From Turritopsis dohrnii (taxonomy: Eukaryota; Cnidaria; Hydrozoa; Anthoathecata; Oceaniidae): a stretch of 64,000 nucleotides of DNA. Shown here in pieces: positions 4,599-43,869 of the stretch (positions are counted from its first letter, which is position 1; every line of letters starts with the position of its first letter). Where the stretch lies: positions 1,736,001 through 1,800,000 of the forward strand of contig BQMF02000010.1 in NCBI GenBank assembly GCA_027922465.2, read 5' to 3'. Made by a program: the position numbers and the translations under genes. The notes under the pieces are model-generated. The model worked only from the letters and a program-made list of their open reading frames with translations. It searched no databases and was not told the DNA's origin.

Positions 4599-5720
4599 AT
4601 GATATCTATTTACCAAGAACACCGGTCAAATGTCAAATGCAAAACGTTTGTTAACAAGAACGGCAAAAGAACTAAGCTACATACATCAGGACTATATTAC
4701 GATGGGTATTGGGCGGAGGGCGTGGAATATGAACCCCGAACGCCCTTTGACGTAATTGGGTGTTTACAATGCTGTTCAGATACTCACAATCCAATCTCAT
4801 TGTCTTTCTTCAGAACTGAGAATGGGGAGAATGAACGACGCCCGTTTGTTTTGGAGGGTGGTGAATTTAAAGATGAATTGCTAGTTGAATTCCGCATTGG
4901 CCATGATAGAGTATTGGCGATAACAACTACCGACGAATATGGTTGGGATTACGTCGTGACGTTGTGGAACTTACTGGATAATCTTAATTTGAAATTGGCA
5001 TGGTCAAACACGCTAAATGAAATGCTCAATAGACCTAAGGAATCTTACTTGGGATGGGTGTATCGGTCTGAATTCTCACCGTGCGAAAAATACTTAGGGA
5101 TTGGTTTTTTCAGAGGTGTTTTAATCCTACTCGACTGCGTCAATGAGAAAATACACAGCGTACTCGATCTGCATCGTGCAATTGATAATCAAAAATTTAA
5201 CATACACGCGTCAATCGATTGCACATTTTGCTTCGATCCAAACTCAAGGTTTTCAGGGATTGTTATTGGCCGATCAAAATACTTTTGTCGTGTGACTGAT
5301 CCACTCTACTACGACTCATGCTTCAGAAGAGATTCAAGATTACCCCTTACTTGTCTGCCTGAGTATGTAGGTCAAATAAACGAGCTTGGCTACTCTAAAA
5401 ACGGATATTTATTTTGCGTGTGCTCCTCGTCTGGTCATGTTCTTGCATACTCTACACGAAACTACCAGGAGATCGTTTACGAGTTGCCACCGCCTGATAT
5501 ATTTCAGTGGCATGTGGAAGCTTGTTCTTCATCATTTTCGTCATCTTCAGAAGAGTTAGCAGTTGCCTATAGCAACAACTACTTGTGCGTCTGGCAGTTG
5601 CCAAGAATTTTAAATTTACAAGAAATTTGTCGTTTGAAGATAAGAACGATTGTGACGCAAGATGACATTGATAACCTATCCATCCCGAATTCCTTGAAAG
5701 AATACTTGAAGTTTAGATGA
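4599..5720 (+). CDS. WD40-repeat protein with C-terminal SOCS box (WSB1/2-like)
   Basis: Predicted substrate receptor of a Cullin-RING (ECS) ubiquitin ligase: WD40 blades bind the target and the SOCS box recruits Elongin B/C and Cullin 5. The 373-residue frame has degenerate WD blades (VTLWNLLD near 122, LILLDCVNE near 175, LCVWQLPRILNL near 332). It ends in a SOCS box: CRLKIRTI, then LSIPNSLKEYLKFR at the C-terminus, closely matching the WSB1/WSB2 layout (W-x-x-PR, CR, IP, KE-x-L). The exon probably begins at 4,497 after TTGTTGTTTAG, and its upstream reading frame (MRIKLDSYDIYLPRTPVK) is homologous to copy 2 at 11,587. Compared with copy 2 this copy has a net 98-bp deletion near 4,630 that throws the upstream frame out, so only the ATG at 4,599 gives a product. 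It is either N-terminally truncated or a young pseudogene. Confidence 0.8.
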   Translation: MISIYQEHRSNVKCKTFVNKNGKRTKLHTSGLYYDGYWAEGVEYEPRTPFDVIGCLQCCSDTHNPISLSFFRTENGENERRPFVLEGGEFKDELLVEFRIGHDRVLAITTTDEYGWDYVVTLWNLLDNLNLKLAWSNTLNEMLNRPKESYLGWVYRSEFSPCEKYLGIGFFRGVLILLDCVNEKIHSVLDLHRAIDNQKFNIHASIDCTFCFDPNSRFSGIVIGRSKYFCRVTDPLYYDSCFRRDSRLPLTCLPEYVGQINELGYSKNGYLFCVCSSSGHVLAYSTRNYQEIVYELPPPDIFQWHVEACSSSFSSSSEELAVAYSNNYLCVWQLPRILNLQEICRLKIRTIVTQDDIDNLSIPNSLKEYLKFR

Positions 5721-10963: not shown

Positions 10964-11350
10964 CTAGAAAAGTCTGGCAGTTGGCGTTCCACAGACTTTA
11001 AGAGAACCTCTGTATGTCAATAGGCACGACATATATTTCACCCAGTAACGTCGGCTATTTAGTCGTATCTTATTGATGCATCGTCGGAACTTTCTATTTG
11101 TTGATCGGACACATAAGTCGTAGGACGTGATGGTTCTTTTGGAATTGTCGGAATCGTACTGTGAAGGGTTTAGCTCCAGACTCTTTTCGATATCTTCTGT
11201 TGTACAGCTGGCGCAATTGCTTTGGATTTTTGTTTCTGCGCTTTTTGTTTCTTCTTTTGTGTACTTATCATTGTGTGACGTCATAATATCATCAGCTTTC
11301 AAAACTGAAATTGTCGCCACTATACAAAACCACATCACTATTTGTTTCAT
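10964..11350 (-). CDS. Small secreted cysteine-containing protein, copy A
   Basis: A 128-residue protein starting MKQIVMWFCIVATISVLKA, a clear signal peptide with cleavage expected before or after the A-DD step; no other membrane segment. The mature part is acidic then basic and has six cysteines (CASC pair, then one each in DLCVR, RRCIN, MSCLL and KVCG). I do not recognise the family. An upstream in-frame TTG extends the frame but ATG at 11,350 is the natural start. A paralogue of exactly the same length is at 17,874-18,260 and differs most in the last ten residues. It is divergently arranged to WSB copy 2. Single exon as far as visible. Confidence 0.75.
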   Translation of the reverse strand: MKQIVMWFCIVATISVLKADDIMTSHNDKYTKEETKSAETKIQSNCASCTTEDIEKSLELNPSQYDSDNSKRTITSYDLCVRSTNRKFRRCINKIRLNSRRYWVKYMSCLLTYRGSLKVCGTPTARLF

Positions 11351-11586
11351 TTCAAATTTTTTCCACAAAGAAACGATAAAGACTAGCAATTTTTCTCAAT
11401 TCACAAAGTTGCAAATGTTTCTTTTTATTTTCGACTCGTTTTAAATAGCATCCGTTTCCAAGTGATTACAACATTTATACCAGTTATTTTGGGTCATCTT
11501 CCATCCTCTCAGCGTCTCAATATTTGTGAATATCGGCAATAATAAATACTCTGATACAAACCTGAAAATAGTAAAATGAACTTACG

Positions 11587-13045
11587 TGTTTGTGGCTCAA
11601 TGAGAATCTAGTTGGATTCCTATTACATCTATTTACTAAGAACACCGGTCAAATGTTCCTTCATACCGGACGATGCTTCGATAATCGTCTGCAGCACAAC
11701 GAGCTCTTCCAACCTATCAACCTTCCAAATTATCAAGAAACGTCCAGAACTTCAACGGTGCAAAACGTTTGTAAACAAGAACGGCAAGAAAACTAAGTTA
11801 CGTTTGTCAGGACTATTTTACGATGGGTATTGGGCGGAGGGCGGGGACTCTTACTTGGGATGGGTGTATCGGTCTGAATTCTCACCGTGCGAAAAATACT
11901 TAGGGATTGGTTTTTTCAGAGGTGATTTAATCCTACTGGACTGCGTCAATGAGAAAGTACACAGCGTACTCGATCTGCATCGTGCAATTGATAATCAAAA
12001 ATTTAACATACACGCGTCAATCGATTGCACATTTTGCTTCGATCCAAACACAAGGTTTTCAGGGATTGTTATTGGCCGATCAAAATACTTTTGTCGTGTG
12101 ACTGATCCACTCTACTACGACTCATGCTTCAGAAGAGATTCAAGATTACCCCTTACTTGTCTGCCTGAATATGTAGGTCAAATAAACGAGCTTGGTTACT
12201 CTAAAATCGGATATTTATTTTGAGTGTGCTCCTTGTCTGGTCATATTCTTGTATACCGTATTTCCACTTTTTAGTGCCCCCTTTTTTAGCGTTCGACTCT
12301 AATTTCATAAGCACCCCCTCTAATAAACGCCCGGGCGCTTATTAGAGTTACAATAATACGTTCAAAACCCTAAACAAGCGCCCAGCCGCTTATTTTGTTG
12401 TTCATGTGAATCGTCTTTCCTTTCTTAAACCTTTCCATCTCTTGCAAAAAAAGTAAAAGGTTTCTCCGATGAAGGGTGTCCACTGGTCTTTGTATACATG
12501 ATGTCGATTAAGAAGATAGCGTAGACATGTAGATATGAACTATACTTGATATTACTTATGTTTACTGTACATAGTTTTTCAGACTGATAAAGTTGAATGA
12601 TAAAAGTGCAAATAAGTCTTTATTTTTAACACCTCTCACAATTTTATGTAAGAGTTTTTTGAAATAATTTTGTAAGCGCCTCCCTCTTTTAGGCGCCCTT
12701 CCAATTCTCGAAACACTTTAATAAGCATCCGGGCGTTTAATAGAGGAATTACGGTAGCTACTCTACACGAAACTACCAGGAGATCGTTTACGAGTTGCCA
12801 CGTCTTGATATTTTTCTGTGTCATGTCAAAGCTTGTTGTTCATCATTTCCGTAATCTTCAGAAGAGTTAGCAGTTGCCTATAGCAACAACTACTTGTGAG
12901 TCTGGCAGTTGCCAAGAATTTTAAATTTGCAAGAAATTTGTCGTTTGAAGATAAGAACAATAGTGACACGTGATAACATACGTAGCCTAAACATCCCAAA
13001 TTCCTTGAAAAAATACTTGAAGTCTACATTGCGTCTACAATCTTG
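11587..13045 (+). pseudogene. WSB-like WD40/SOCS gene, broken copy 2
   Basis: Nearly identical in stretches to the gene at 4,599 but disabled. Visible lesions: AAG changed to TAG just before 11,612; a deletion of several hundred bases after GYWAEG (near 11,840) joining to SYLGWVYR; a TGC to TGA nonsense codon after GYLF (12,221-12,223); a 0.5-kb MITE at 12,256-12,755; further small changes in the last exon part (12,757-13,045). It retains about 100 bp near 11,654 (VKCSFIPDDASIIVC region) that copy 1 has lost, which looks like ancestral WD-type coding sequence. Its 3' flank carries the Helitron pair at 13,055. Confidence 0.9.
12256..12755. mobile_element. MITE with CCGTATTTCC termini
   Basis: Terminal inverted repeats: left CCGTATTTCCACTTTTTAGT, right end ...GAGGAATTACGG. 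Both subterminal regions are rich in GCGCCC/GGGCGC hexamers in mirror arrangement (CGCCCGGGCGCTTATTAGAG). Flanked by TA on both sides. The intact paralogue at 5,446 shows uninterrupted coding sequence at this point, so the insertion is certain. TIRs of CCGTA type with TA targets are compatible with a non-autonomous DNA transposon; superfamily not assigned. Confidence 0.85.
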
Positions 13046-17873: not shown

Positions 17874-18260
17874 TTAACCTCGATATTTGGATGGCGCTCC
17901 ACAAGCTTTAAGAGAACCCCTATATGTCAATAGGCACGACATAAATTTCACCCAGTAATGTCGGCTATTTAGTCGTATCTTATTGATGCATCGTCGGAAA
18001 ACCTTTTTTGTTGATCGAACACATAAGTAATAAGACCTGATGGTTCTTTTGGAATTGTCGGAATCGTACTCTGAAGGGTTTAGTTCCAGACTCTTTTCGA
18101 CATCTTCTGTTGTACAGCTGACGCAATTGCTTTGGATATTTGTTTCTGCGCTTTTTTTTTCTTCTTCTGTGTACTTATCATTGTGTGACGTCATAATATC
18201 ATCAGCTTTCAAAACTGAAATTGTCGCCACCATACAAAACCACATCACTATTTGCTTCAT
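17874..18260 (-). CDS. Small secreted cysteine-containing protein, copy B
   Basis: Paralogue of the protein at 10,964-11,350, again 128 residues, starting MKQIVMWFCMVATISVLKA (signal peptide). The same six mature cysteines are kept (CVSC, YLCVR, RRCIN, MSCLL, KACG). Differences are scattered substitutions plus a different C-terminus after the last cysteine. An AATAAA polyadenylation signal lies about 25 bp past the stop (reverse of TTTATT near 17,846). The flanks 17,480-18,530 duplicate 10,620-11,580, so the gene was copied with its surroundings. Both copies are open, arguing for maintained function. Confidence 0.75.
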   Translation of the reverse strand: MKQIVMWFCMVATISVLKADDIMTSHNDKYTEEEKKSAETNIQSNCVSCTTEDVEKSLELNPSEYDSDNSKRTIRSYYLCVRSTKKVFRRCINKIRLNSRHYWVKFMSCLLTYRGSLKACGAPSKYRG

Positions 18261-18539
18261 TTCAAATTTATTCCACAAAGAAACGAAAATTTGAATGTTC
18301 GTGTAAGATTTGATAAAGACTAGCAACTTTTCTCAATTCACGAAGTTACAAATGTCTCCTTTTATTTTCAACTCGTTTTAAGAAGAATTCGTTGCCAAGT
18401 GATTTTAACGTTTATACCAGTTATTTATGGACACTATCTTCCTTCCTTTTAACATCTCAATATTTGTGAATATCGACAGTTATAAATACTCTTATAATAT
18501 ACTTGAAATAGCGAAGTGAAACAAGTTAATTACGACCAC

Positions 18540-21690: not shown

Positions 21691-22311
21691 CAACCCGGGT
21701 AAAAATGTTCTAATAATTTTAATCAATGTGAGCATTATCTTATATATATATATTACTTATTGTAATACAAAAGTACAATGAAATATGTTCATCAGAAAGG
21801 TGTATTAAATAACGTTTTGATGAAGCATTAACCATTTTCTACGACATTTAAACAGCCATTTCATACATCATCAAACTGCAAAATAAGTTGGTGAGGTAAC
21901 GATAACGATATTATTTCGAACTTCACATAGACGAAAAGTTTGATAGAATTAGTCACTAAATATCATGAGCAATGGATACGGACGTTGCTGCCAATCTGTA
22001 AATGTAATCAAAAAATTAGTTGTGAGTGGCAACAAAATAAGCTTGAATGATTGGTTTGAATCTGACTCACCATTGTTTCCCTTCACATCTAAACTAACTG
22101 TAAACATCTGAATATCTTGATAATGGCTAAATCTATAATCATCTACTACATACAGAGAACAAATAATTCATGTTAAGGCAGCCTTAAAACTAATTAGAAA
22201 CTAAGCTGACAAAACCAAGCAATTACAATCTTTATTTACAATGGCAAAAGCCCTATCATTTAAAAGAAAGAAGAAATACATATGGGATGGCACTCCATTA
22301 ATCAGATCTGT

Positions 22312-22425
22312 AACTCATTGTGCAAAATCGTCAAAAAATCACTGTGACGGAGAGCATTGTTAGTGAAATTATGTGTAGATTTCTATAGAAATGCACTCCT
22401 TCGCAGATATTTTTTACTAAATGTG
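22312..22425 (+). mobile_element. Small foldback MITE-like element, copy 4
   Basis: Same family as 1,791 and 4,351: TTGTGCAAAATCGTCAAAAA and AATCACTGTGACGGAGAGCA at the left, AGAAATGCACTCCTTCGCAG at the right. Confidence 0.65.
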
Positions 22426-22712
22426 CTGACTAAAATTTCAGTTCGACACTAATTCAACACTAATTGATAGAGTGAGAGATATACTTAAACTCAAATCTTA
22501 GGTTAGTAAATTGACAGTGTGAAAGCTGGAATGTTAGCATACTGTGATGAAAGAGGTAAGCAAAAGAAATTGGAACAAATAACTTTATATTCTAATTAAA
22601 ACTAAATTATCTAAACTAAAATACCCTCATCAGTTTTCTATCCATTTTAGTGAGTCTATGTAAAGAAATTCAAATGAAAATTTCGTAATGCTTACTTAAA
22701 GGTCTAAGTAAC

Positions 22713-24085
22713 TCACTTAAATGAATAGAAAACTGATGGGGCAAAAGCATTAAAATTGTACTGATTGACAACAGTTGGCATAGTAGTTGCAGTTGGCGTA
22801 GTAGTTGCAGTTGGCGTAGTAGTCACAGTTTTCTTTTTCGTTCCATACCATTTGAATTTGGGGTGATCCCAACCCCCGAATCTCTTCCACGCCTGAACAG
22901 CTGCATTAGACCGGGGGCCGGGATGTGTCTTTCGGTATTCCCGAAAGTCTTTGTACAAATCTACAATATATAGTTGAAATAATTTTTATTAGTGAAGAAA
23001 CAAATAGGCTGATATCATAATTGATAAAATACTATATCAGGGAAACTTACATTTCCTTTTGTTTGCCAGAACAGCATCTAAAAAAATTGCAAAATGTACC
23101 TAAGACACAATTCTTCACCCATGTTACGTTAACATTACAATTGTAAAAAATATTACCATTAGGTTTGGCAGATGATGGTAGTTCAGCTAAAAGAAATATA
23201 TAAGTAGATTGTAAAAGTCATAACATATAGAAAGAAACCATTAATGTGTATTGACTCTTACTATCAGCTGTTGGTAAAGCATTATCTAAATAAAGAAGGT
23301 ACAAAAAGTAGCTGTCATACAAAAGAAAGATAAAAGAAATTGAAACTACAAAGTTATGTCAATTAAAACCCTTACCCTTTGCCACATTCGGCACGTTATT
23401 GGTATTTAATGAAGGAAATCACGAAGTTATAATTACAGAATGTCTAAATATACATCATAGACAAAGGAGTATAAGTAAGTAGATTAAGAAAATCATAACA
23501 CATAGAAAGGAAATGTTAATGTTTATTGACTCTTACTATCATCTGTTGGTAAAGCATAATCTAAATAAAGAAGGTCCAGGAAGTAGCATACATTCAAAAA
23601 TTTCATACACCGTAACTCAAACAGCCTGATTCAGCAGATGAAAAAACCGAGAGAAAATGAATTGATAACTCCAATAAGAATTCTTACTATTTTCGATATC
23701 TTCACTGACATTTGTTTAAAGGAAAAGAACATGTTATAATGGCAGCATGTAAATCCAAAATATATAAGATGAGATATATTAAGCAGATAAAAAAATGCTA
23801 TTAAGAAAGAATTTTTACCTTTACCAAGTAGTTCTTTTTCTCGCTCTGAAATGAAATCAATTTGCTTCGAGTATTTTGACTACTTTCACAGAAAATAATA
23901 TAATATATTACAGCCAAAACAGTATAAATGAAAAAACTGGATTTATTTAAAAAATTTTTACCTGCGCTAATAAATTTGTCTTCTGACTCTGAAATGAAAT
24001 CAATTTGATTAGTATTTTAATGACTCTTACAGAAAGTTTAAAAAATTAATGTTTTACCTTTGCACACATCCATAGGAGTCCCCAT
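22713..24085 (-). CDS. Micro-exon gene: at least ten exons, nearly all 12-30 nt and phase 1
   Basis: Predicted spliced gene of unknown function. Exons read on the minus strand (plus coordinates): 24,058-24,085 with ATG and GTAAAAC donor; 23,962-23,988 (27 nt); 23,819-23,845 (27); 23,688-23,699 (12, weak acceptor); 23,537-23,560 (24); 23,376-23,405 (30, acceptor ends AA not AG); 23,262-23,285 (24); 23,157-23,186 (30); 23,051-23,077 (27); terminal 22,713-22,960. Every internal exon is a multiple of three and every junction is phase 1, so any can be skipped without a frameshift. Micro-exon peptides include SEDKFISA, REKELLGK, NYALPTDD, DNALPTAD and ELPSSAKPN. The last exon encodes a compact basic segment (KDFREYRKTHPGPRSN, then AWKRFGGWDHPKFKWYG), a TTTPTA repeat and a stop. 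Two neighbouring exons and their introns (23,262 and 23,537) are near-duplicates, showing growth by exon duplication. No signal peptide is seen at this ATG; an upstream exon is possible. A further 15-nt candidate exon lies at 23,611-23,625. Confidence 0.7.
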
Positions 24086-24512
24086 TACTTCTTATTATAC
24101 TAATTAACTAAATGAAAAAAAACAAAAGTTACAATCATATAGAGATAATATGTAGCATGCCCTGACTTTTAGTTCATGAAGTGTCCACAAAGTTCACTTT
24201 ATGCACAATTCATGGTAACGGAGTACACGGCGAGAACGTAAGTCAATGGGACTTGTACTCCACCAAAACCTACAGGTTGTTCATTAGGTACAAAGCTGCC
24301 AAACTACAGTGCTACAACAACTGTCAGCAGTGACTACAGCAATGGTTTACAGTATACTAATGAGCCACAACATGTCTCAACAGTGGCGTAACTTACAGAA
24401 GACGCCAAAACAACTGTCAACAGCAGCCACCACTGTAAGTGTTTACGCTATCTTATTATATAACAGAATAAGCCACAACAACAAACTCAAATGTTAAGGT
24501 GAATCACGACAT
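24086..24512. other. Helitron 3' flank / micro-exon gene 5' flank
   Basis: Unassigned sequence between the helicase stop and the micro-exon gene. The 3' hairpin and CTAG of the Helitron should lie here, but I found no convincing candidate. Short frames at 24,309-24,497 are not supported. Confidence 0.4.
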
Positions 24513-26107
24513 TCACAGCAACACTTGTGGAAAGACAACATTTTGAGTATACATCTTTCCATTAATATAACTTTGCTTACCCATACCGGCAACTTTGATT
24601 TTAACATTACCAAAGGCTTTCGCCCTTGAACAGGCGACATACAACTGTCCATGTGAAAAACACGGTCTCTGCAAAAACAAACCAATTTTTTCAAACGTTT
24701 GACCTTAACATTTGTTAATAGTAAAAGAGTACGCCAGCCGAATAGGAAGTTGCCTGCGCTTCAATACAGATGGCATACCTGTGTCGGATGGTGACAATTG
24801 TACTCTAGGTATAAAAATCAGTTCCCCAACTGCTGACCCTGTCAAAACTTCAGCCTTAATAAAGTTATGCGACAACTCACGAACAATCAAGCGGGTGCCA
24901 TTACAGAGACCTTTCCTGATGTTCAGATTCCTCAAAAGCATAATAATAGCCCCAACTTTAAGTTTCAAACAATGTGGAGGCATACCGGATGGTGTAATAC
25001 AATTCAGAAAATCAACCGGATAGTTTTGCTGCTCCTTTTCATCGTCACACGTTACTTCATCAGCACTGTAATAGCAAACTGCATCTCCAGGCAGTCTGTC
25101 CAACACCTCATTATTAATGATCAATGATTGATCATTTGTCGTAGTCAGAATGGCTGTGGTGGCATATTCGTGAGGCTCCAGTCCATCATACATCACAGAT
25201 ATAATCAAAGTTTCTTTAGGAACAACACAACAATCAGGAATTTCGATGGAACCTTTAGCTGGTTCGGTTTGTTTCGTTGGAAGTTCACCATTGCCAAGTT
25301 GCAACAGCCAAGTACAGAATTCTTGCTCTTCCGGTCTAGCTCTCATATTTTCAGTGAGAGAGTATTTTGCCACTAATGCCCATAACACAGAACTGGTCAA
25401 GCAAACTTCAATAACATTGGTTGGCTTTCCCTTTTTCACAACCGGCAAACACTGACAAAAATCTCCACCCCATAAGAGAACCTTGCCACCAAAAAGTGCA
25501 TCACTGCCACAAACATCCTTGAGTAATCTGTTCACAGCATGGAAAACGTGGGTAGAAACCATAGTTGCTTCATCGATCAGAAACAGGTCGACACTTCGAA
25601 GGTATTCCGCATGTTTCGAAGCTGGTGTTATATTACATACGCTATTTTCTAAAACAGGAACAGGCAAACGAAATAATGAATGCAATGTACAACCACCAGA
25701 CAGCAAGGTGGCTGCAATACCTGTATATGCAGCAGTAGCAACTTTCCATTCTCTGGCTCTGCATGCTACAATAACATAATTGTATGTAAAAGTCTTACCT
25801 GTGCCAGCCGGTCCGTCTAGGTAAAACAACGTTTCAAGTTGTGCTAAACCATTACGCACATTTGAAACTGCAAACAAAATCGCATCTGCCACAACTAACT
25901 GCTGTTCGTTAAGCAAAGGCCTTACCGGTTCTGCCCTGTTGATGTAAATATTTACATCAACTTCTTTCTGAGCATCCTGTTGAACCAATTCAGGAAGATT
26001 AAACTGTGTTAAAATCATACCAAATTGTCTCAGGACATTACCAATGTAACCCAAAACCCTTTGCTCAGCTTGAGCAACAGCCAATGTCCGAAGGTAGTCT
26101 TTCTTGA
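24513..26107 (-). pseudogene. Helitron Pif1-like helicase domain, nonsense in motif VI
   Basis: SF1B (Pif1 family) DNA helicase that unwinds the element during rolling-circle transposition. Walker A GPAGTGKT, Walker B LIDEATM, GGDFCQCLPV and LTENMRA are present. The main frame (26,084-24,708) stops at TAA 24,705-24,707, where the conserved motif needs Gln (INKC-stop-GQT). The same frame then continues with FEKIGLFLQRPCFSHGQLYVACSRAK to a natural TGA at 24,513-24,515. Another nonsense codon (TGG to TGA after NPLEL, near 26,115) separates it from the Rep part. Hence inactive as sequenced. Confidence 0.9.
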
Positions 26108-29100
26108 ATGTATTTCACAATTCAAGAGGATTAGAAGGCTCGCAGTGAGTCAAGATAGTAACAAACAGTTGTCTAACGTTTGAACGTTGAAGGCTTTTCC
26201 AATGTATTGTGCCATTCTGCGTCATCTTGCAGAAGATGTCTGGCAATACATGCTTCTCGGAATGTGTCGTAAACAACTCCATTGAAAGTACGCAAATCCT
26301 CGAAAGACGTAGCACCTGCAACATGCAACAACAAAACTCGTAGAAAAAAACGTTCTCCTTCTGAAGGTCGAGCATTGTATAACCGAGCGACTATTGGTTT
26401 TAATGTCTTTTTTCTTTTTTTCCATTTTTTCTCCTTATCATGAAAAACATAATGATACGGAATATCTGAGTAAAGATACCGCCGGACAACCACGGACAGT
26501 ATGGAACTACCCATTGATTATCTAAGTCCACATTTCTTACCCTCACAGTACGGCCATTGTTACGTCTGGGATAGAGTGGATACCCATTTGCATTCATTTT
26601 GGTTGTTTCACAAAATCGCTTTGGAAAATCCTTGGTGCAGTTTCCATCATCTCCCATACAAACTGCATTAGGGTTAGCATTCCCACAGGGGCCATGAATC
26701 ATACATGACTTGATGATATTATGAAGTTCTGGTTCTTGTTCAGGATCCGGTATTTCAGTAGAAATTAAGCTGTCAATGTCATCAGCATGACGTAGTTTGT
26801 CCTTTTGTGCTAAATGGATAAGAATATGAGCATGAGGCAAAGAACGTTTCTGAAATTGAATAACATAAAAAGGAGAAATGGCTTTTCCCAAAACACCATT
26901 TTTATTTATATCCTCCAAAAGAGCTTTTAATTTCAAATTGAAAACACGTGTAATCAAGTCCGGACGATAATGTGCAGGCTCATTATCTAAGTTTTTGTGA
27001 TCTCCCTCCATTTGGGATTGCATGTAAATGTGCAAAACAAATCCGGCTTGCACATTTTAGTAACCATAGCCATAGCATCTTGATAATTCTGTTGCATGGC
27101 CCTAGAACCACCCTTATAGGAAACGGAAGAATCACCGGTCTGCCTGCATGAAGGCCACGATTTTCTGCAACATTTTCAAAATAATCAATGAGCCCTTGAT
27201 ATTGCTCAACACGGAAATTGCCCTGGTTTTGACGAACATAATTAAGACGGTCAGATTCAACTTTGCAGTAACAATCTACAGCATATTGTTGAAGTAATCT
27301 TTTACGTTTTAATACGGGACTAAAAGCTTCTCTAAAAGCAAACCTATAAGTATAATATTGCAGCATGGTCGTACGACGTTGCTGGCCTGCTGCATATTCT
27401 GCTACATGAGGAATGTCGGAACTCCAACCGAAATCTCCTCTTGGAAAAAATACAGGATACACCATTGGATCGACATTAGGTGAATGAACAGTCAAATACG
27501 AAAAACTGGCGGACCACAACCTTGTGGAACAACCAATTTTGCATCCATCAAAGCAAAACCAACCAAACTATTGAACTTTCGAATGTCTTCTTGAAAGTTC
27601 TTTGCTTGATTAGAATCACCTACTAAAAATTCTTTAGGATCACTAGGATAATAAATGTTATCTAAATGAACTTCACCATTGTGACAGCACTTGAAATTTG
27701 TCTCGTCACCAAACATCTTAGCACCTAAATGTACAACCACCAGACAGCAAGGTGGCTGCAATACCTGTATATGCAGCAGTAGCAACTTTCCATTCTCTGG
27801 CTCTGCATGCTACAATAACATAATTGTATGTAAAAGTCTTACCTGTGCCAGCCGGTCCGTCTAGGTAAAACAACGTTTCAAGTTGTGCTAAACCATTACG
27901 CACATTTGAAACTGCAAACAAAATCGCATCTGCCACAACTAACTGCTGTTCGTTAAGCAAAGGCCTTACCGGTTCTGCCCTGTTGATGTAAATATTTACA
28001 TCAACTTCTTTCTGAGCATCCTGTTGAACCAATTCAGGAAGATTAAACTGTGTTAAAATCATACCAAATTGTCTCAGGACATTACCAATGTAACCCAAAA
28101 CCCTTTGCTCAGCTTGAGCAACAGCCAATGTCCGAAGGTAGTCTTTCTTGAATGTATTTCACAATTCAAGAGGATTAGAAGGCTCGCAGTGAGTCAAGAT
28201 AGTAACAAACAGTTGTCTAACGTTTGAACGTTGAAGGCTTTTCCAATGTATTGTGCCATTCTGCGTCATCTTGCAGAAGATGTCTGGCAATACATGCTTC
28301 TCGGAATGTGTCGTAAACAACTCCATTGAAAGTACGCAAATCCTCGAAAGACGTAGCACCTGCAACATGCAACAACAAAACTCGTAGAAAAAAACGTTCT
28401 CCTTCTGAAGGTCGAGCATTGTATAACCGAGCGACTATTGGTTTTAATGTCTTTTTTCTTTTTTTCCATTTTTTCTCCTTATCATGAAAAACATAATGAT
28501 ACGGAATATCTGAGTAAAGATACCGCCGGACAACCACGGACAGTATGGAACTACCCATTGATTATCTAAGTCCACATTTCTTACCCTCACAGTACGGCCA
28601 TTGTTACGTCTGGGATAGAGTGGATACCCATTTGCATTCATTTTGGTTGTTTCACAAAATCGCTTTGGAAAATCCTTGGTGCAGTTTCCATCATCTCCCA
28701 TACAAACTGCATTAGGGTTAGCATTCCCACAGGGGCCATGAATCATACATGACTTGATGATATTATGAAGTTCTGGTTCTTGTTCAGGATCCGGTATTTC
28801 AGTAGAAATTAAGCTGTCAATGTCATCAGCATGACGTAGTTTGTCCTTTTGTGCTAAATGGATAAGAATATGAGCATGAGGCAAAGAACGTTTCTGAAAT
28901 TGAATAACATAAAAAGGAGAAATGGCTTTTCCCAAAACACCATTTTTATTTATATCCTCCAAAAGAGCTTTTAATTTCAAATTGAAAACACGTGTAATCA
29001 AGTCCGGACGATAATGTGCAGGCTCATTATCTAAGTTTTTGTGATCTCCCTCCATTTGGGATTGCATGTAAATGTGCAAAACAAATCCGGCTTGCACATT

Positions 29101-29771
29101 TTAGTAACCATAGCCATAGCATCTTGATAATTCTGTTGCATGGCCCTAGAACCACCCTTATAGGAAACGGAAGAATCACCGGTCTGCCTGCATGAAGGCC
29201 ACGATTTTCTGCAACATTTTCAAAATAATCAATGAGCCCTTGATATTGCTCAACACGGAAATTGCCCTGGTTTTGACGAACATAATTAAGACGGTCAGAT
29301 TCAACTTTGCAGTAACAATCTACAGCATATTGTTGAAGTAATCTTTTACGTTTTAATACGGGACTAAAAGCTTCTCTAAAAGCAAACCTATAAGTATAAT
29401 ATTGCAGCATGGTCGTACGACGTTGCTGGCCTGCTGCATATTCTGCTACATGAGGAATGTCGGAACTCCAACCGAAATCTCCTCTTGGAAAAAATACAGG
29501 ATACACCATTGGATCGACATTAGGTGAATGAACAGTCAAATACGAAAAACTGGCGGACCACAACCTTGTGGAACAACCAATTTTGCATCCATCAAAGCAA
29601 AACCAACCAAACTATTGAACTTTCGAATGTCTTCTTGAAAGTTCTTTGCTTGATTAGAATCACCTACTAAAAATTCTTTAGGATCACTAGGATAATAAAT
29701 GTTATCTAAATGAACTTCACCATTGTGACAGCACTTGAAATTTGTCTCGTCACCAAACATCTTAGCACCTA
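25684..29771 (-). repeat. 2,044-bp tandem duplication inside the Helitron
   Basis: 25,684-27,727 and 27,728-29,771 are identical wherever I compared them, including every frameshift. The junction joins the helicase (after LLSGGCT) to the middle of the Rep N-terminus (LGAKMFGDET) through an AA/AAT microhomology. It is either a very recent unequal exchange or an assembly duplication; the shared lesions show it happened after the Helitron had decayed. Confidence 0.9.
26115..27727 (-). pseudogene. Helitron Rep region, duplicate copy (truncated)
   Basis: Copy in the left repeat unit: it lacks the first part of the N-terminal domain because the duplication begins within it (LGAKMFGDET). Contains HSPNVDPMVYPVFFPRGDFG, a Helitron-like N domain, and the HUH-type box FQKRSLPHAHILIHL (27,053-26,400 frame). 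Then comes YSDIPYHYVF followed by EGERFFLRVLLLHVAGATSF. The reading frame switches several times between these blocks through small indels, exactly as in the right copy. Confidence 0.85.
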
Positions 29772-30171
29772 AAAACTGACAGACCTTGTCCATGGCGCCA
29801 AGGTAATGTGGCTCAGGCATTTGGTCTTGTCGAGCAGCACGATTTTCATTTCGTCGAACAGCCCGCCAAGCCCTCATACGTTGTGCATTCTCATTTCGCC
29901 TGACTAATCCTTCAACTGGCTCTTCATCTTGACGATATTCAACACGCCTTTGAGCATCATTGATTCTGAGTCTCTCATTTTGAGATAATGGATGGATATT
30001 ATTTGTCTGAAGCTGTTTGCGCCTTGCTTCAGCAACATCCTCATTTGCATGCCTACGCTGAATAACAGAGCGCATTTGTTGCTGATCAGGTGGCTGCAAA
30101 ACAAACTGACCATTCCTAAAATCTGCTTGGAAGCCAGGAATAATATTAGTGCCTCTTATATTAAACATCAC
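27728..30171 (-). pseudogene. Helitron Rep region with N-terminus, plus partial helicase
   Basis: Full N-terminal copy starting at ATG 30,171 (MMFNIRGTNIIPGF). There is an Arg/Glu/Asn-rich region with RRNENAQRMRAWRAVRRNEN, then LGAKMFGDETNFKCC, HSPNVDPMVYPVFFPRGD, the Rep HUH motif LPHAHILIHL and the ATSFEDLRT region. It ends in the first helicase motifs up to GPAGTGKT at the duplication junction. Frames alternate at about 29,545, 29,160, 29,040, 28,480 and 28,230. The HUH histidines are preserved. Non-functional. Confidence 0.85.
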
Positions 30172-30484
30172 AACAGCACAGAATCACTAACAATAATAGA
30201 TAGAAGAAAGAAATATATATTCCCCCAGTGAACCTGGAGGTAGCGAAACCAAACCTTTCTTTCTACAACCTAACAGACACTGAAGGAGAAATAATACCAA
30301 ACAGATAGCTAAGCAACCTACGAGAAAGCGAAAAATTGACTTGTGACACGTAACGGAATTACAGTTGTACATGTAAGTTTTTAAGTGACAAACCTTTCCT
30401 TCTACTTTCTGTCTTTCTACTATGTCTCTCTACTCTACAGCAAGGAGCAAATGAACCCGAATAAATGCAAATATAAAAGTTCTT

Positions 30485-30512
30485 AGATAGGTAGGCAGGT
30501 AGGTAGGTAGTC
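30485..30512. repeat. (TAGG)n microsatellite
   Basis: About six units of GTAGG/TAGG in the Helitron 5' region. Confidence 0.8.
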
Positions 30513-30993
30513 TATTCGGTTAGGTTGGAAAAACCTTCGTGGAGTTTGCCATCTTTAAAATATTAAACAAACACAGTTATTACCTCGTTACGTAATTCTT
30601 TCGCTTTCGAAACTTTCAAACTTTGGTAAACTTGATTAACTGTCAAACTTGATTGATAACTATAGATATTGATTTATAGACAATTGAATTGTTTATACGT
30701 ATTGGCTATTATTTCTGAAGCGTAACCACAATGAATAAAAAAACTTAATTTGTTTACTTTTCCAGCGAACGTCTTCGTTATAGTTTTTCCAATTTCGGCA
30801 ACCAATCAAAACGGCAAAACGGTGATCACGTGTCAAAACAAATGATGAAAATTAGGCATTTTGAGGGTTTCTTCACTGGTCGAACTGCCGCTATATGACC
30901 ACGATTAAGAAGATTTTGACCATTAAAAAAACAAAAACAAAACACTGTCTAAATTAAAAGTGGGATGCACGATTGCGGATTAGTATAAGTAGA

Positions 30994-34651: not shown

Positions 34652-37554
34652 CATGACTTCCAAAGATAAATTTGAAGCTTACACGTGAAAATTTACCCAA
34701 CCAGGGAAAACGTCAACAAGTGGTATAATAAGTAGAGAATTTGGAAAGAAAATCATAAGTTATCTTAAGCAAAAGACTGCCATTACTGATACTGGTCCTG
34801 AAGCTCGCCAATTCAAGTTTTTTGTTAAGGAAAAAAGTTTCGATTAATTGACTTCAAAGAAATAAACTTAAAAGATATTCTTATAGCACCAGGGCCATCT
34901 GTAAGTTAATAAATTTTCCAAAAGACTGTATTACTAAAGACCCAGAATTTTTTTAAATAATCGAAAATGTACTTTAGAAATTTACAACTGCAACCTCTAT
35001 CCCTGATGGCTACTTACGTGTTGCTTATGCTGATGAATTTTATGACATTATTACAGATGTTTTTGCTATTGCTTGTTTGCAACAATTTAATTCATTCTGG
35101 AATTCGTAAAACACATGAGAAGGTATATTTACACCATGCTAGTCGTTTGCAACATAATTTTATTTTTTTAAAAGATATATAATCTATGATTTCAACAGAC
35201 TTTTACTGACTTTTAAGTATGTATATACAGTGACATACTGTCATGAAAAAACAAATTATTGCCATCTTATTATTGATGAGACATGTTGTTCAGGTGATGT
35301 CTTTATATTGGGGCATTCCAAGATCTGCTGATGAACAATATATAAAGCTTCGTGAAACATGTCACCTTAAACAACATCAGAAAACCCTTCCACCCATCAA
35401 GCCAGTCATTTCTAAAGGATTTATGAATAGGTAACAGGTAATCTAACATATTAAGATCTATATTTTATTGATAATATGGTTATTATATCAGCTATAAGTA
35501 AGCATCATATATTCAGGTTGATCTCATTGATATGCAACATTTACCAGATGGAAATTTTAAATTCATACTCCATGCATTTGATCATTGGACTAGATACAAC
35601 TTTTTATATCCGCTTGAAAGAAAAGAGTCGAAACTAGTTGTGGGTTGCTTAGAAAATTTATTTTCAATGTTTGGCACAACAAAAATATTCCATACGGATA
35701 ATGGTAGAGAATTCGTCAATAAGGCTATGGAAACCTTGGTAAGTGATTGGTCAGGCGAAATTCAGATGGTTGAAGGTCGTCCAAGACATCCACAGAGTCA
35801 AGGCATGATAGAGCAAGCACATAATAATGTTGAAAGTAAAATATCTGCGATGATTTCAAAAAATAATGATAAGATTGAGTGGAGTCGATGGCTACCAAAA
35901 ATCTGTTGTAAGTAAATTATTTTTGCAGAGTTTCTGAGTAATTGATTTGAAAATAATTATAAGAATTGACATTAAAATACATAACGTAAATACATTAAAA
36001 GTTGTGATCAATTATATCAATTATCATTAACATATTTTATGTTGAAAGTTACCTGAAGGTATTGGGAGCAGCATTATCTGGAACGACCTCAATGTAGAAT
36101 CGGTTTTTTTTAATTCAGATGCAATTAACACTCAAAAACACAGTCCAACAGGATTTACGCCATATGAACTTGTATTTGGTCGGCCACCTTCCACAACAAT
36201 CATTCCACTTGCGTCGGGGCAAAAGATGATCCTTCCTGAAGATGTTGATGGTGAAAATGACGACGATGTAGATTCTTTTTCATTACCACCCGATGAACAA
36301 GGAAATTACGTGAAACAAAAGCCCTGTAAGATTAGTAAATTAACGATGACAAGAGTTTACGAAACAGAAACAATAAATTAATACAACTTACGAAGACAAC
36401 AGACAATGACTTATTCTTGACACTTCACCGCTTAACAATCTATTGTTGAAACGTGTAAAAGAAATATTTGAAACGTTACTGGGAATTTTAATAGTAAATA
36501 GTTTAGTGAATCATTTAGGTTGAATCGATCATTAAATCAAGATTTCAGATCAAAAAAGAAAACGAAATAATGGTAAGAAATATAAGTCGTATCAATTTCA
36601 TAATCGCAACCGTACAATCTTAGCAAATTTGATAGGCGTAAACGAAATGATGACGTAAATCGTTAGAGCTATTCTGTGCTTTAAGAAGAGTCCATTGATT
36701 CTGATATTGTGCAACACAGCAAAAGATCGAAATCTAACAAAAATGGTTTGTATATCGACAAGTAACTGGTACTGACAATTTCATCTTTCTGACATGTGTC
36801 TGATATAGTTGGTGATTTTCTTTGTGTAGATTCTCTTCCTGAATCATCAAATAATTTAGAAGACTCTGATGGTAATTTATTGCATAGATTTTTTCAAATA
36901 AAACTACTCCAGACATCAATAACCTCTATATCTTTAAATTCTGATCTTTCTTCCACCATTTTTCATGGCAATTATCAAAAAGCTGCAGCTAGAAAAATTA
37001 AATCATCAAGAGCAAAAATGATCAAGAGATTTCAAAAGAAACACAGTACAAGGACCTTTTTATTTAGCGTTGGTGATAATGTGTCATTAAGAGTACCTTT
37101 GAAAGATCGTCAATACACAGATCCCCCACGTATTCCCTGTGTCATAGTTAAGATCTCTGGTGACAAAATTAAATCATACTGATTGCTAACTTGTCGCGGG
37201 GTTCTCAGTACTTCTTATAGGTCAGGTGCTTTAGAGCTGTAAAAAGGTTCATTCGATATTGATATTGATAAAGTTGGAGACAAGTTCATCAGTTTGCGTG
37301 AAGCTAATCGCTTAGAAAACTATAAGAACGCCATTTTTGTAAAAGCAAAGTGCACATGCAAGAGTGGTTGCTCAACGTTCTCGTGCTCTTGCAAACGACA
37401 GGGCTTGAGATGCTGTACACTCTGCCATCCGAGTAAACGTTCCTGGTCTAATAGGGAAAGCATAAATTCGGCTCAATGTACGCTGTCTTTTAACATTGTA
37501 GATATCCAAGCAGCTATAACAGCGACAACGAAGACAACAACTTCATTTAAATGA
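34652..37554 (+). pseudogene. KRBA2/Ginger-like integrase-type transposase with CXC tail
   Basis: Spliced, broken DDE integrase gene. N-terminal piece 34,652-34,905 (REFGKKIISYLKQKT); H2C2-like zinc region 34,955-35,180 (IHSGIRKTHEKV) and 35,240-35,430 (CHLKQHQKTLPP); catalytic core exon about 35,518-35,910 with D in HAFDHWTRY, D in FHTDNGREF and E in MIEQAHNNVE; exon 36,120-36,326 (HSPTGFTPYELVFGRPP). The last exon to 37,554 has VGDNVSLRVPLKDR (KRBA2-like, GPY/F-type region) and a Cys-rich tail (CTCKSGCSTFSCSC, CHPSKRS). Lesions: indels near 34,850 and 35,090, in-frame TGA 37,180 and TAA 37,240. Introns look canonical (GT-AG). No LTRs or gag seen, which favours a DNA transposon of the Ginger type over a retroelement. 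Confidence 0.8.
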
Positions 37555-37749
37555 AAAGCTTCAGTCCGATGTCGGATCAATTCATTTTAATTCATAGTCG
37601 TTCACATCTCATGTTGTTGTCTTTGTTGTCCAGTTGCGCAACCTTCCCATTTTTATCATCGTGATGTTAGTGTCATAAATATGATGTTACTGTAGGTGAT
37701 GATCAGTTTGTTGTTGACTTATCTTTACCGAGTTTTAGAGAAAAGCTGA

Positions 37750-38830
37750 ATGAAAAAGGCCGTACTATACAAATTTGCAAATACATGCCGAATCGACAGT
37801 TGGTTTACTCTCCTTAAGGTGGTGTTCACGACATTGCCTTCTTTTGTGTGTCAATTTGGACGAGTTTGTTTCAACCATGCTAGCGTCAAAGTGTTTCGAT
37901 TGATTGTTGATGATAGTTATAATCGTGCAAGAGTGTGTGTAGCTGAAGGTGAACAACTTGCAGTAGAAGATGGTGTGATCGATTTTTTCCGAGATGAATT
38001 TTCTTTCATCAAGCGCTATCTCATCTCTAATTTGAGACATACCATCACATCTGTTTGTGATAGCCAAACTTGTCCAAAGCCTCGCGACTTGCTTGACCGA
38101 GAAGGTGTAATTCACGTCAGCATGGAGAAAAACACCAAATGGGTTTCACCAAGCATATTTGAGAAGGAATTTGAAAGTTGGGCAAATTCATCCAGCCATT
38201 CAACATGTGGTATCAACCTGGATAAACCCACTGACGATCCAAAAGATACGTTCTGGGACAAAAATATAACTAACGGGTATGTGAATATTCTTTAACGATG
38301 TTTTTAATTCTTTTTCGTTTGTTATTTACTTCTTGGTTCATTTTAAGAACTTGGAAACCTTGCTGCAACGGACTAAGGAAATTCAGTGATCGAACTTTCA
38401 AGAATATTCCAGTCCCTTTACCCATAAATGTTGGTGTTGTCGCAGCAAAACGCAAATTTGACATTAATTCCTTTCCTGTAGTAATGAACATTAAATACAA
38501 CGAAGAAATCCAACGGTATCATTTCAAGATAAATATTTCGAATGTGTCAAACACAGGGCAAAAAAAATATTACTCTAATTTCTTCGTAGATACCGTCTGA
38601 TCGGGGTGACACTTTGGAAGCAAAGTCATTATACTTGCATGATATTGTATGACGGTATTTGGTACCTCTACGACGGATTGGCCACACCAACGTTGCGTAA
38701 ATGCAGTAATTTTGATCCACTTTACAAACCCTCTTATTGTTTATATGGTATATACATTATCATTCAGAACTTTCGTAGAACATGTTATAAGAGTACACGT
38801 TTTATCGTTTTCAGTCATTCCTACTTTTCC
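37750..38830 (+). CDS. USP-like (C19) cysteine peptidase gene, left copy
   Basis: Predicted ubiquitin-specific-protease-like enzyme. Exons: 37,750-38,276, 38,348-38,515, 38,590-38,747, and probably 38,815-38,830 with the stop; introns of 71, 74 and 67 bp have GT-AG ends and join in frame. Cys box KFANTCRIDSWFTLL (N-T-C-x-x-D/N-S). His box QSHYTCMILYDGIWYLYDG, matching the HYT...WY.xD pattern of the USP family, with the catalytic Cys, His and Asp all present. The His box only appears after splicing 38,515 to 38,590. The same exon sizes (168 and 158 nt) occur in the right-arm copy. It lies 195 bp after the integrase CXC tail on the same strand; this linkage is also in the right arm. The 5' end may lie further upstream. 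Confidence 0.7.
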
Positions 38831-39091
38831 ATAGTGATCGACGCTGAAAATACAGAATTTCAAGAAAACACAGGTTCTGCAAACATAGAATCAAGTACTT
38901 CACTTTGTTGTTTAACAATATTCATTCCATAACTGTTCTAGTTGCATTTTCACTTCAGTCATAATTTTTGCAGGAACCTTTCCAAATTCAATCAACTCGG
39001 ATGTCACGGAAACCGCCGAAATGCTAGAATCGGGTATCATGCTCTAAAATCCTAGAATACTTCAGTTTCTATGTTGACAGCTTTTGTACAG

Positions 39092-39551
39092 GTTCTGTTC
39101 ATTTTAGGAGGCATAGGTGAAGCAGCCACCAAACAGCAGCCGACAATTCGAAGTAAGTGTAACAACGCATTATTTCTACAGATCTATGGAAGTTGTGTGT
39201 CTTTCTCTCCTTATGCGTCCATGCTTTTACACGGGGATGCTCAAACAATCTCATTATATCATCATCTCTTTATTACTCATTTATATTCACCTTCATTATT
39301 TTTTCATAATCAAGATTGTTCAAATAAAAATAATTATGAAGAAGGAGAAATGACTGATGAAGTCTCAAGCACTGACATTCAACCAGAAGGTGTTTATAAA
39401 GTATCCCTAGTGCCTGCACTAGTGTCACCAGTGGCTTCGGTTAAATATAATTCTGTTTGCGTTTCAATTGTTTTTAAAGAAGCCGAATTATTAATAGCAG
39501 CCAAAGCTTTAACAGATTTGTTTGGAATATATAACTTGAAAGATCACGAAG
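39092..39551 (+). CDS. Candidate linking exons between USP and PHD parts, left copy
   Basis: Three likely exons with good splice sites: 39,092-39,152 (TTGTACAG acceptor, GTAAGT donor), 39,315-39,389 (NNYEEGEMTDEVSSTDI, acidic) and 39,480-39,551 (ELLIAAKALTDLFGIYN, 72 nt). Counterparts occur in the right arm, the last at 58,805-58,876, also 72 nt. They suggest the USP and PHD parts may be one long gene, but the connections are inferred and phases were not all reconciled. Confidence 0.4.
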
Positions 39552-39865
39552 GTATCACAAACTTTGTCTGGTATTTTCATCATCTTCGCGCTTCAAAAAA
39601 GAAGTGTACAATTCATTGCATACCTTAATGTTACGTTGTGCACCATTAGACCGTGACAAAGTTCATTAAATATTATTGTTTAGAAAGTCCACTCGCCAAA
39701 GACGATGGTCAATTGAGTTGTAAACCATCACTTGAGTGTATGTCTGGACAGAACGGAGGTTAAACGTATCAAAATGATAATGAAACCTTTATGGTCATTC
39801 ATTGTTTTACACTAACATTCCTATTAAACATTGATAAGATTAAAGCACCATTCGTTTTTCTCTAG

Positions 39866-40774
39866 CGCTGTGCTCCTTCAAGTCAATGACCTATGAACAG
39901 AAGGAAAGAATGATCATCTCGATATTTGCAAAGCAAGAGCATGTGGAAAGGGTGGTGGATTTTGGAATGGACTTGGAGGAACACGTGTTGCAGAAGAATC
40001 TACCTGATTCAGCTATGGACGGTCTACTTGATGAAACGATCCTTGAAAAATACTGCAATCCCCAATGTTTGGAAAATATCCACCAAAAAATAAATTCAAA
40101 AAAAAGAAAAGAAAATTGGCAATGTGGAACTTGCAGAAAACATCTGTCAGGCCGTAGTATTATCTGCGACAGATGCTTAAATTGGAGTCATTTCAGATGC
40201 TCCAAACTGGATAAAAAGCCAAAGGGTGACTGGTTTTGTAAATGGTGTGTTCAGAACGAACCAATAGGTATTCTGTATTATTTTTATTAATATTTATTTT
40301 ATTTTAATTATTTTAAGTTAAAATAACAATTATCATTTCAGAGCGGTAAAGACTTCAGAATCTTGCTAAAAAAGGTAAGACACGAAAATCGCTATATAAG
40401 TTAAAATTTTGAAGCTATTGAGACTTTTTTTAATTATATCCTTGCAGCCAAAGACGAAGCGGAAAAAGAGGAGCGTTTGGCATTGTGCCCAAGTTTCCTT
40501 TCAAATTCTTTTTAAGGAGGGTACAATAAACGAATTATTAGAAGAATCAAAAAACCCGGAAAAAAATCTTTTTCTTCAAATTCAACGTTCCGAAAGCAAG
40601 CATCTTTGGGAAATTAACGAAATTCTCGAGGAATCATATCCGGAATTTTTCAAGGAGTATTACGAAAACAGTGATTTCGATCCTGGAACTGTTACTCTTT
40701 TCCTGCGTCAACACTTTCCTGAACTTGATAACATTTCGCAGGAGTCAGGAAACAAAATTCCATATAGTAACTAA
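39866..40774 (+). pseudogene. PHD-finger protein gene, left copy, broken
   Basis: Exons 39,866-40,267, 40,342-40,374 (33 nt) and 40,448-40,774. The first encodes a PHD-type zinc finger: CGTCRKHLSGRSIICDRC, then HFRC and WFCKWC (Cys4-His-Cys3), a histone-tail or chromatin reader fold. Compared with the right-arm copy, the 33-nt exon carries TAA (CGG TAA instead of CAG CAA) near 40,347. The last exon has one extra T in TTCTTTTTAAGG, creating a stop. Both lesions are absent from 57,582-58,490. The end of the frame (EESYPEFFKEYYENSDF) is otherwise conserved. Confidence 0.8.
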
Positions 40775-40799
40775 GTTAATATCTATTTTTAAGAGAATT

Positions 40800-41640
40800 C
40801 ACACGTAAACGTGAAATAGAGAGCTAGACACACTCAACCAATACACAACATTATTCTCGTCATCAAACCTTGATTTGACAGGCGTTTACAACCTGGATCG
40901 GTGTTCAACTTGCAAACGCCAATACGTTGTGCTAAACTCAGTGACATAAAGAAATATTTATATTTCGTATTAGTCCTTTATTCCAAATAAGAGCGTTCTC
41001 GTCATCAAAAGTGGCTTTTCGCTTTGACTGAAGAGATTAGCACCTTGAATCCTCAGGCGTTTGCAGCCTCGATGAGTGTCCAACTTGCAAACGCCATGTA
41101 TTTTTTTCAGCAACGCTTTTTGTGAAATGTTCACACTGAATATAAGTGTGTAGTTGATTTCTTACATTTGAACTTGTCATTCTTTAACTAGGGCGCTATG
41201 TTTTTATATGTTTGAAAGCCATAGAATAAATTGGTTAGTTCTGCGTTGGTAATCGGGACGACCGGCTTTTCAACGCTTTGACCCGTTTATGAACGGGACG
41301 GTGAAGCGTTGATAAGTTGGACAGCGTTGATAATCTGGTCAGAACAGATCTACTATTCGTTGTTTTATCCTACTAATTGAAGACAGCTGAAAAGTACAAG
41401 TACAAGAAGCCCAGAAATTCTTCACTGTGAAGATAACTATTCTTACATTCACATGAATTACTTTTAGAGAATTCGAAAACACATATAGATCTTGTCACAA
41501 ATAATATGTTCGTGTAATTGTAAAAAGGATTTTAATGTAGGTTCGATTTCGGGATGAAGACCAACAAGGAATACATTTCTTATTGCACAAACTGAATATT
41601 TTCTCCTTGAACAATGACATAAACGCTCAATAAATTATTT
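40800..41640. other. Repeat-arm intergenic sequence
   Basis: Contains two related motifs: TTTGCAACCTCGATGAGTG / CAACCTGGATCGGTG followed by CAACTTGCAAACGCCA (40,870-41,100), a diverged direct repeat of about 170 bp. There is also an inverted pair GGTAATCGGGACGACCGGCT / CGTTGATAATCTGG around 41,250-41,335. No gene. Confidence 0.5.
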
Positions 41641-41686
41641 GTATTGGATTTATGACAAAAATTCTGAGTTTCATTCAAATTTACAA

Positions 41687-42175: not shown

Positions 42176-42224
42176 CTTGTTTACTATCAAAGACATATGA
42201 TGAATGTGATAGAACATTTAACTT

Positions 42225-43857: not shown

Positions 43858-43869
43858 TATTACGGTAGC

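Follow-up and report, generated by a model that had tools for sequence, protein, structure and literature searches.

The chain of small exons at positions 22713-24085 (minus strand) of the window, the 64,000-nucleotide stretch of Turritopsis dohrnii DNA analysed here, is best explained as an accessory gene of an autonomous hydrozoan Helitron family, and this reading, which takes in the splicing and the role that we infer for the gene, is very probably correct. That the Helitron encodes a micro-exon gene which has been kept under selection is, as a claim of its own, put forward with high confidence. The gene is evidently the second (accessory) gene of the family, lying inside the element ends, on the same strand as the RepHel gene and downstream of it. 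The copy in the window has lost two splice acceptors and its helicase is broken, and it is to all appearances a decayed, dead copy.

Between 24085 and 22713 on the minus strand, an open frame of 148 amino acids can be read through an ATG exon, then seven internal micro-exons and lastly a terminal exon. Every internal junction of this chain has GT and AG, the AG of a 12-nt exon scoring very poorly (-5.7), and the introns are 69-251 nt long. The 5' untranslated part of exon 1 (24086-24107) follows a TTTAG 3' splice site, which is the same acceptor in relatives, and has in-frame stops before the ATG; the coding part (24058-24085, 28 nt) encodes MGTPMDVCK, ends in a phase-1 donor and is supported by the chain and by 54 genome matches. 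Micro-exons 2 (23962-23988, 27 nt), 5 (23537-23560, 24 nt), 7 (23157-23186, 30 nt, 33 nt in some relatives) and 8 (23051-23077, 27 nt) are supported by the chain and by relatives. For micro-exon 3 (23819-23845, 27 nt), a tandem relative of exon 2, and micro-exon 6 (23262-23285, 24 nt), a tandem duplicate of exon 5, repeats add to this support, exons 2 and 3 and exons 5 and 6 being tandem duplicates with their flanks included. The terminal exon (22713-22960), which rests on the chain, the selection test and relatives, encodes a conserved basic domain, a hypervariable K/T/P linker and a conserved C-end, and carries the stop codon.

With strict generic splice matrices, six phase-1 micro-exons and the terminal exon were detected in the chain region, whereas among 2000 dinucleotide shuffles one exon was found in 7 and none in 1993. 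The other 147 of 148 half-overlapping 1.7-kb tiles (both strands) scored 0 or 1 in the same search. When the terminal exon was not required, one tile overlapping the chain scored 4 and all others at most 2. Looser thresholds gave 7 exons in the chain region against a shuffle maximum of 3, or 8 against 5 without the terminal exon. Since the chain searches, in the window as well as in the relatives, admitted only exon lengths divisible by three, that property rests on ungapped matches and on a diverged copy, C686, which is described below. A 15-nt exon at 23625-23611 that appeared in the loose chain search was dropped because relatives have the 24-nt exon 4 instead.

In relatives the gene starts at a conserved TTTAG 3' splice site followed by ATGGGAACTCCCATGG, and the distance from the helicase stop to this start is about 440-540 nt in the four copies examined and 427 nt in the window. 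The order that follows is 27, 27 and 24 nt, then one to three exons of a 24-nt type, one or two of a 30-nt type, one of 30 or 33 nt, one of 27 nt and the terminal exon, the repeat number of the 24-nt and 30-nt types varying between copies. In the family, the gene begins with a single ATG exon and ends with the terminal exon, and between them lie symmetric phase-1 micro-exons of 21-36 nt, mostly 7-10 in number. A chain reaching back to exon 1 was found for 20 of the 24 terminal exons searched, some with exons missing, and the terminal exon is broken in 5 of these 20 copies. By ungapped matches the internal exons are 24-33 nt long, and in these relatives acceptor AG and donor GT are present, respectively, in 21/21 and 21/21 for exon 2, 20/21 and 21/21 for exon 3, 21/21 and 19/21 for exon 4, 34/34 and 34/34 for the exon-5 type, 30/30 and 29/30 for exon X, 18/18 and 17/18 for exon 7, and 24/24 and 24/24 for exon 8. 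The start-to-start distance between exons 2 and 3 differs by non-multiples of three among copies (e.g., 132, 137, 141, 143, 146 and 151).

The relatives also correct two exons of the window copy. Micro-exon 4 is 24 nt long by descent (23688-23711), relatives having ATGGCAGTGAAAATATCGAATATA between ACAG and GT, or close variants of it, and its acceptor, CAG in all 21 relatives, reads CAA in the window copy. The 12-nt exon of the original prediction is the 3' half of this micro-exon, and its length must be revised. Micro-exon X (23376-23405), 30 nt by descent, has AG in 30 of 30 matched relatives and AA in the window, and the exon lacking AG that had been proposed there is thus real by descent. 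With exons 4 and X corrected, the small exons by descent are the nine consecutive ones that had been claimed, exon 1 and eight internal exons, and the claim of a symmetric phase-1 chain with lengths in multiples of three is borne out by the ungapped relatives and by C686. The original prediction had also held chance to be unlikely, which agrees with the six micro-exons and terminal exon against at most one in the 2000 shuffles. The comparisons taken together confirm, at the level of predicted gene structure, that the micro-exon chain is real. Provided that exon X is left out and exon 4 begins at its 12-nt acceptor, the frame of the window copy stays open.

An inverted repeat (22625-22741, minus strand) with 31-nt arms at 22741-22711 and 22655-22625, found by repeat search and folding, overlaps the stop codon. 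Searched with at most four substitutions per arm, it is present and folded in all 23 loci examined, in a single copy each, at -37.0 to -59.4 kcal/mol, and a T to A change in one arm of the C686 repeat is matched by an A to T change in the other. It is not the usual 3' terminal hairpin because in the window it lies about 0.9 kb from the 3' end of the element. Membership of a miRNA family was rejected for this hairpin, the matches being weak and far under gathering scores.

The Helitron copy that contains the chain spans 21697-30993 (minus strand), with the 5' end TCTACTTATACTAATCCGC at 30993 and a degenerate 3' end near 21697, an approximate position inferred from comparison with C193. In longer composites covering ten places, homology begins at a single base, A followed by TCTACTTATACTAATCCGC or close variants, in C199, C193, C306, C107, C80 and C484, with TC at 30993 in the window, and this 5' end is common to 7 of 11 composites, namely C199 and six others that align with it. 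Both canonical ends, A/TC...CTAG/T, and a 3' hairpin can be read in C107 and C193, where insertion was between A and T; the 3' end is CTAT in C306 and degenerate in the window. The 5' end in the window directly follows the CTAG of another Helitron. At 34582-30993 (minus strand) there is a head-to-tail row of short Helitrons in which CTAG is followed, directly or nearly so, by the TC of the next.

Upstream of the chain lies a remnant Rep/PIF1 helicase (24513-30183, minus strand), identified by Pfam (PIF1, 3.5e-51), ORFs and relatives. It is frame-broken, with a premature stop near 24705, and has two deletions of about 498 and 364 nt relative to L009 and L013. Its interior contains a perfect 2046-bp tandem duplication (25684-27729 and 27728-29773), which is either very recent or an assembly artefact. 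In C306 the helicase exon has an open frame of 1183 amino acids (L023:2941-6490, minus strand) with Helitron_like_N (PF14214, 9.3e-58) and PIF1 (PF05970, 2.4e-53), and thus the Rep domain and the PIF1 helicase that mark an autonomous Helitron are found in one protein (L023). Among the nine composites that were scanned, the helicase frame is open in C306 and C235 and is accompanied there by a first open stretch of 312-313 amino acids. These two keep the micro-exon gene open too, at 171 (L023) and 168 (L031) amino acids.

The genome searched comprises 435.9 Mb in 891 contigs. A nucleotide search with the terminal exon gave 40 scored places at 79-100% identity, of 150 candidates, and a protein search with the C686 terminal exon gave 151 matches of 681 candidates, with 45-100% identity among the 150 matches listed. 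Of these 150, 119 are stop-free inside, as are 115 of 144 places after fragments were merged. Whole-genome pattern counts were 135 for the helicase C-terminus, 61 on 50 contigs for the terminal C-end, and the 54 of exon 1 given above (at most three mismatches); reversed-pattern controls for all three gave 0. Of 20 fetched regions, 15 contain a same-strand Rep/PIF1 helicase upstream of the gene, and in one of them, L010, 1.8 kb of other DNA separates the two. The five regions without a collinear helicase are L015, where a Rep part is in opposite orientation, L020 and L021, which are parts of one tandem array without a helicase body, L022 and L024. The array of L020 and L021 (C28:168000-187000) has units of about 3.4 kb with apparently open micro-exon genes, and two of its unit junctions are without TC/CTAG.

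Viewed from the helicase, a terminal match lies within 6 kb downstream on the same strand for 81 of the 100 helicase C-termini listed (of 135), at a median of 2.0 kb, or for 83 of the 100 when two terminal C-end pattern places are added, as against 2 with a same-strand match upstream and 0 with one on the opposite strand in the control among the same 100. Between 17 and 19 of the 100 are without a terminal match among the matches listed, and 3 of the 100 are C-terminal fragments in a tandem array. A stringent terminal pattern had paired only 30 of the 100 and was superseded after the diverged copies were found. Of the best 40 of 655 candidate helicase segments, which share 95% identity or more with the window's own and include it, 39 have a terminal match downstream. 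These and the other pairings indicate that the micro-exon gene is a regular part of the Helitron family.

For the selection test, four near-identical tandem copies were removed from 25, leaving 21. In the parts tested, which are the conserved terminal-exon parts and exon 8, chosen by us for their gap-free alignment and not including the hypervariable K/T/P linker (mean identity 0.62), substitutions shared by at least two copies were 25 synonymous to 5 nonsynonymous and singletons 5 to 23 (Fisher p=9e-7). On 41.7 synonymous and 144.3 nonsynonymous sites, pN/pS was 0.11. As a yardstick, the helicase in 16 sequences gave 29:11 for shared and 33:74 for single substitutions (synonymous:nonsynonymous). 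The conserved parts of the terminal exon are thus, to judge from these counts, under purifying selection. Such a pattern is expected where purifying selection acts on the lineages that multiply, each single copy decaying afterwards. With exon 8 set aside, exons 2-7 gave 6:8 shared and 5:26 single substitutions (synonymous:nonsynonymous) on 35.4:126.6 sites, with pN/pS of 0.29-1.24 per exon, highest in the 24-nt exon type. Micro-exons 2-7 are apparently weakly constrained and yet their phase is kept, also in the strongly diverged subfamily. Among close copies exon similarity alone is no proof of coding because the introns are equally similar. The synonymous divergence of the terminal exon exceeds that of both the flanking introns and the helicase, and therefore the modules do not have one simple common history.

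The helicase of the diverged copy C686 matches the window's at 96% identity over 581 bases, whereas the micro-exon gene of this copy aligns at only about 64-77%. The spacer between helicase and gene is homologous in C686. As read by us, the gene has an ATG exon of 37 nt, phase-1 exons of 27, 30, 24, 30, 24, 36 and 27 nt, and a terminal exon with an open frame. The first of the 24-nt exons, whose acceptor is weak, was placed by eye on the strength of homology, and the automatic chain differed, having a 45-nt exon in that place and a 12-nt piece of the terminal exon. The terminal exon aligns at 46% amino-acid identity (E=5e-18), and the peptides of the chain differ. Over 37 codons of the terminal domain, eight comparisons gave pS of 0.43-0.61 and pN of 0.21-0.24. 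Compared with the terminal exon of C686, those of the 39 close helicases have 48-100% protein identity, 20 of them below 60%, 13 at 60-89% and 6 at 90% or more. Near-identical helicases are thus paired with strongly different accessory genes, a contrast that could stem from recombination or cassette exchange, from rapid evolution of the gene, or from the two together.

Three other explanations have to be weighed. Short exons are easily fitted and a chain search favours them by design, both of which would suit a chance alignment of GT and AG sites in non-coding DNA, but the shuffles and the other tiles speak against it, as do the splice sites kept in nearly all matched relatives, the synonymous bias, and the same type of chain in the diverged subfamily C686. 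Judged by these comparative data, chance alignment is refuted and its probability is close to nil. The chain could also be a host gene like the micro-exon genes (MEGs) of schistosomes beside which a Helitron had inserted by accident, as its architecture and the helicase ORF just upstream in the window might suggest. The same arrangement, however, recurs at many unlinked places, and moreover the organism is a hydrozoan, no signal peptide is seen by inspection and two acceptors are lost in the window copy. The repeated collinear copies refute, as we read them, a host gene that merely neighbours a Helitron, to which we likewise give hardly any credence.

A host family of micro-exon genes that was captured by Helitrons and is merely copied along as a passenger is an explanation of another kind. 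Helitrons take gene pieces by 3' read-through, as described in PMC4778049 and PMC6431247, the terminal exon is more diverged than the helicase, as repeated captures from an old family would give, and 5 of the 20 fetched regions are without a collinear helicase. On the other hand, the link to the helicase is old, spacer and gene being homologous in C686 despite its strongly diverged micro-exon gene, and 39 of the 40 close helicases (the best 40 of 655) carry the gene. In addition, shared substitutions are mainly synonymous and singletons look neutral, so that selection appears to have acted along the multiplying lineages. Capture as a passenger is therefore improbable, and an accessory gene belonging to the Helitron is the reading that we prefer.

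As an accessory gene of the Helitron, it would be transcribed in the direction of the element, and at its conserved 3' splice site exon 1 would be joined to either a spliced leader or a 5' exon that was not seen. Splicing of the micro-exons would yield a protein of about 160-180 amino acids (129-144 in three copies without some exons). Since the internal exons start at codon position 2 and their lengths are divisible by three, any of them can be skipped without a frameshift. The N-terminal half of the protein would be acidic and loosely constrained, made of exchangeable blocks of 8-10 residues and variable according to which exons are included; the common job, probably binding of nucleic acid or of RepHel, would fall to the conserved basic domain at the end. 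Such an accessory protein may help the element to move or to persist, for example against host silencing. We propose this specific functional role only tentatively. A further idea, which goes beyond it and is in our judgement rather unlikely, is that this Helitron clade has evolved its own hypervariable, splice-diversified, effector-like factor that is exchanged as a cassette between near-identical helicases, its variants meeting a partner in the host that changes fast, for instance the silencing machinery.

The product of the terminal exon is basic and the whole 148-amino-acid product has one cysteine. By inspection a signal peptide is not evident, the start MGTPMDVC not being hydrophobic and in-frame stops preceding the ATG, and the original prediction was right on both this point and the basic terminal domain. 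It had not recognised that domain, and neither did database searches. With the window product, the best Pfam match was DUF3439 at E=0.79 (three family proteins gave nothing up to E=10), the two chains matched in the PDB had E=0.29 and are not significant, and a search of 5.77 billion proteins gave one match that is not significant (E=5.2). A structure prediction for the terminal exon alone had a mean pLDDT of 60 and was not used. Aphid bicycle proteins are secreted and have paired CYC motifs; inspection of the 148-amino-acid product, with its one cysteine and no signal peptide, revealed neither feature.

A signal-peptide exon (MKLMVLIM..LGRTDY..) with a phase-1 donor does occur in the window at 33192-33070 and 21497-21375 (minus strand), in two copies that are 93% alike. 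It is intact at 21497 and in L022 (about 2239-2433), where it precedes exons X, 7 and 8 and the terminal exon in phase. The possibility that the exon at 33192 is the true first exon, cut off by the Helitron, was rejected: it belongs to a separate Helitron of about 1.8 kb, for which a first look at the genome gave 1990 candidates, and a common frameshift is present in the copy at 33192 and in those of C199, C235 and C484. Elsewhere in the window, 37367-45664 and 62429-49680 form a large inverted repeat of 92-98% identical pieces, about 8-12 kb per arm, which holds PHD-finger and other ORFs, has an integrase ORF nearby at 35502, and may be a palindromic transposon of large size or a joined haplotype. 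Two copies of an intronless ORF (10964-11395 and 17874-18332, minus strand; 86% at the amino-acid level) have an apparent signal peptide and several cysteines, and the first of them had no Pfam match. On the plus strand, at 4581-5720 and 11612-12223, an intronless WD40/SOCS-box ORF (SOCS_box, E=3e-8) and a second ORF share 412 bp at 97% and are perhaps retrocopies. Outside the window, mitochondrial COX1 (C880:5673-7012; TGA = tryptophan) is in two frames that overlap by four bases, which is an assembly error or a real frameshift. This COX1 has 94% identity to its counterpart in the siphonophore Stephalia dilata and 91% to that in Hydra vulgaris, the three best among the 120 matches listed (of 8000) reaching 95-96%, which places the host among the hydrozoans.

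To our knowledge, micro-exon chains were previously known from host genes only, and our literature search, which most subscription journals lay outside, found no report of a micro-exon gene in a Helitron. A transposon that keeps a micro-exon chain under selection would place this gene design in mobile DNA and would suggest a route for the spread of such genes. The Helitron copies would also be a natural variant series in which the recognition of exons of 24-30 nt can be studied. With helicases at least 95% identical and accessory genes at 48-100%, the idea of an arms race or of cassette exchange is testable in other hydrozoan sequences. For a recent expansion of Helitrons, PMC12239608 refers to the Hydractinia transposon study of Kon et al. 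2025.

The likeness to schistosome MEGs that had been pointed out holds for the layout, and what does not hold is a host gene, as the chain is a Helitron module in many dispersed copies. MEGs of Schistosoma, according to PMC10526429, are host genes that encode a signal peptide and whose introns range from 100 to nearly 5000 bp; in common with the gene described here they have a chain of micro-exons, most with lengths divisible by three, basic residues towards the C-terminal end and high variability. Here, in contrast, no signal peptide is seen by inspection, the introns are 69-251 nt and the gene is inside a transposon. At the sequence level, the analysis consists of a search of the window protein against 5.77 billion proteins as a whole, where the best match had E=5.2. 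In S. mansoni, duplication of MEGs has been associated with transposons (PMC8293314). The bicycle genes of aphids, as presented in PMC9168663, resemble the gene in layout, with many small internal exons nearly all starting at codon position 2, but they are host genes for putative effectors and lie outside transposons.

Among Helitrons, which are rolling-circle elements, accessory domains or ORFs are described in PMC6431247 and PMC5148889, namely RPA, OTU protease and AP endonuclease, and the present family is like those elements in its RepHel, its TC and CTAG ends, its 3' hairpin and its additional coding region. In Helraiser the 3' terminal hairpin is the transposition terminator (PMC4778049). 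FoHeli3 of Fusarium has an extra ORF without known domains that lies upstream in opposite orientation (PMC5148889), whereas the micro-exon gene lies downstream of the helicase on the same strand. Unlike the accessory ORFs of known Helitrons, the gene described here is divided into about ten small exons, is without a Pfam family, and is far more diverse than the close helicases with which it is paired.
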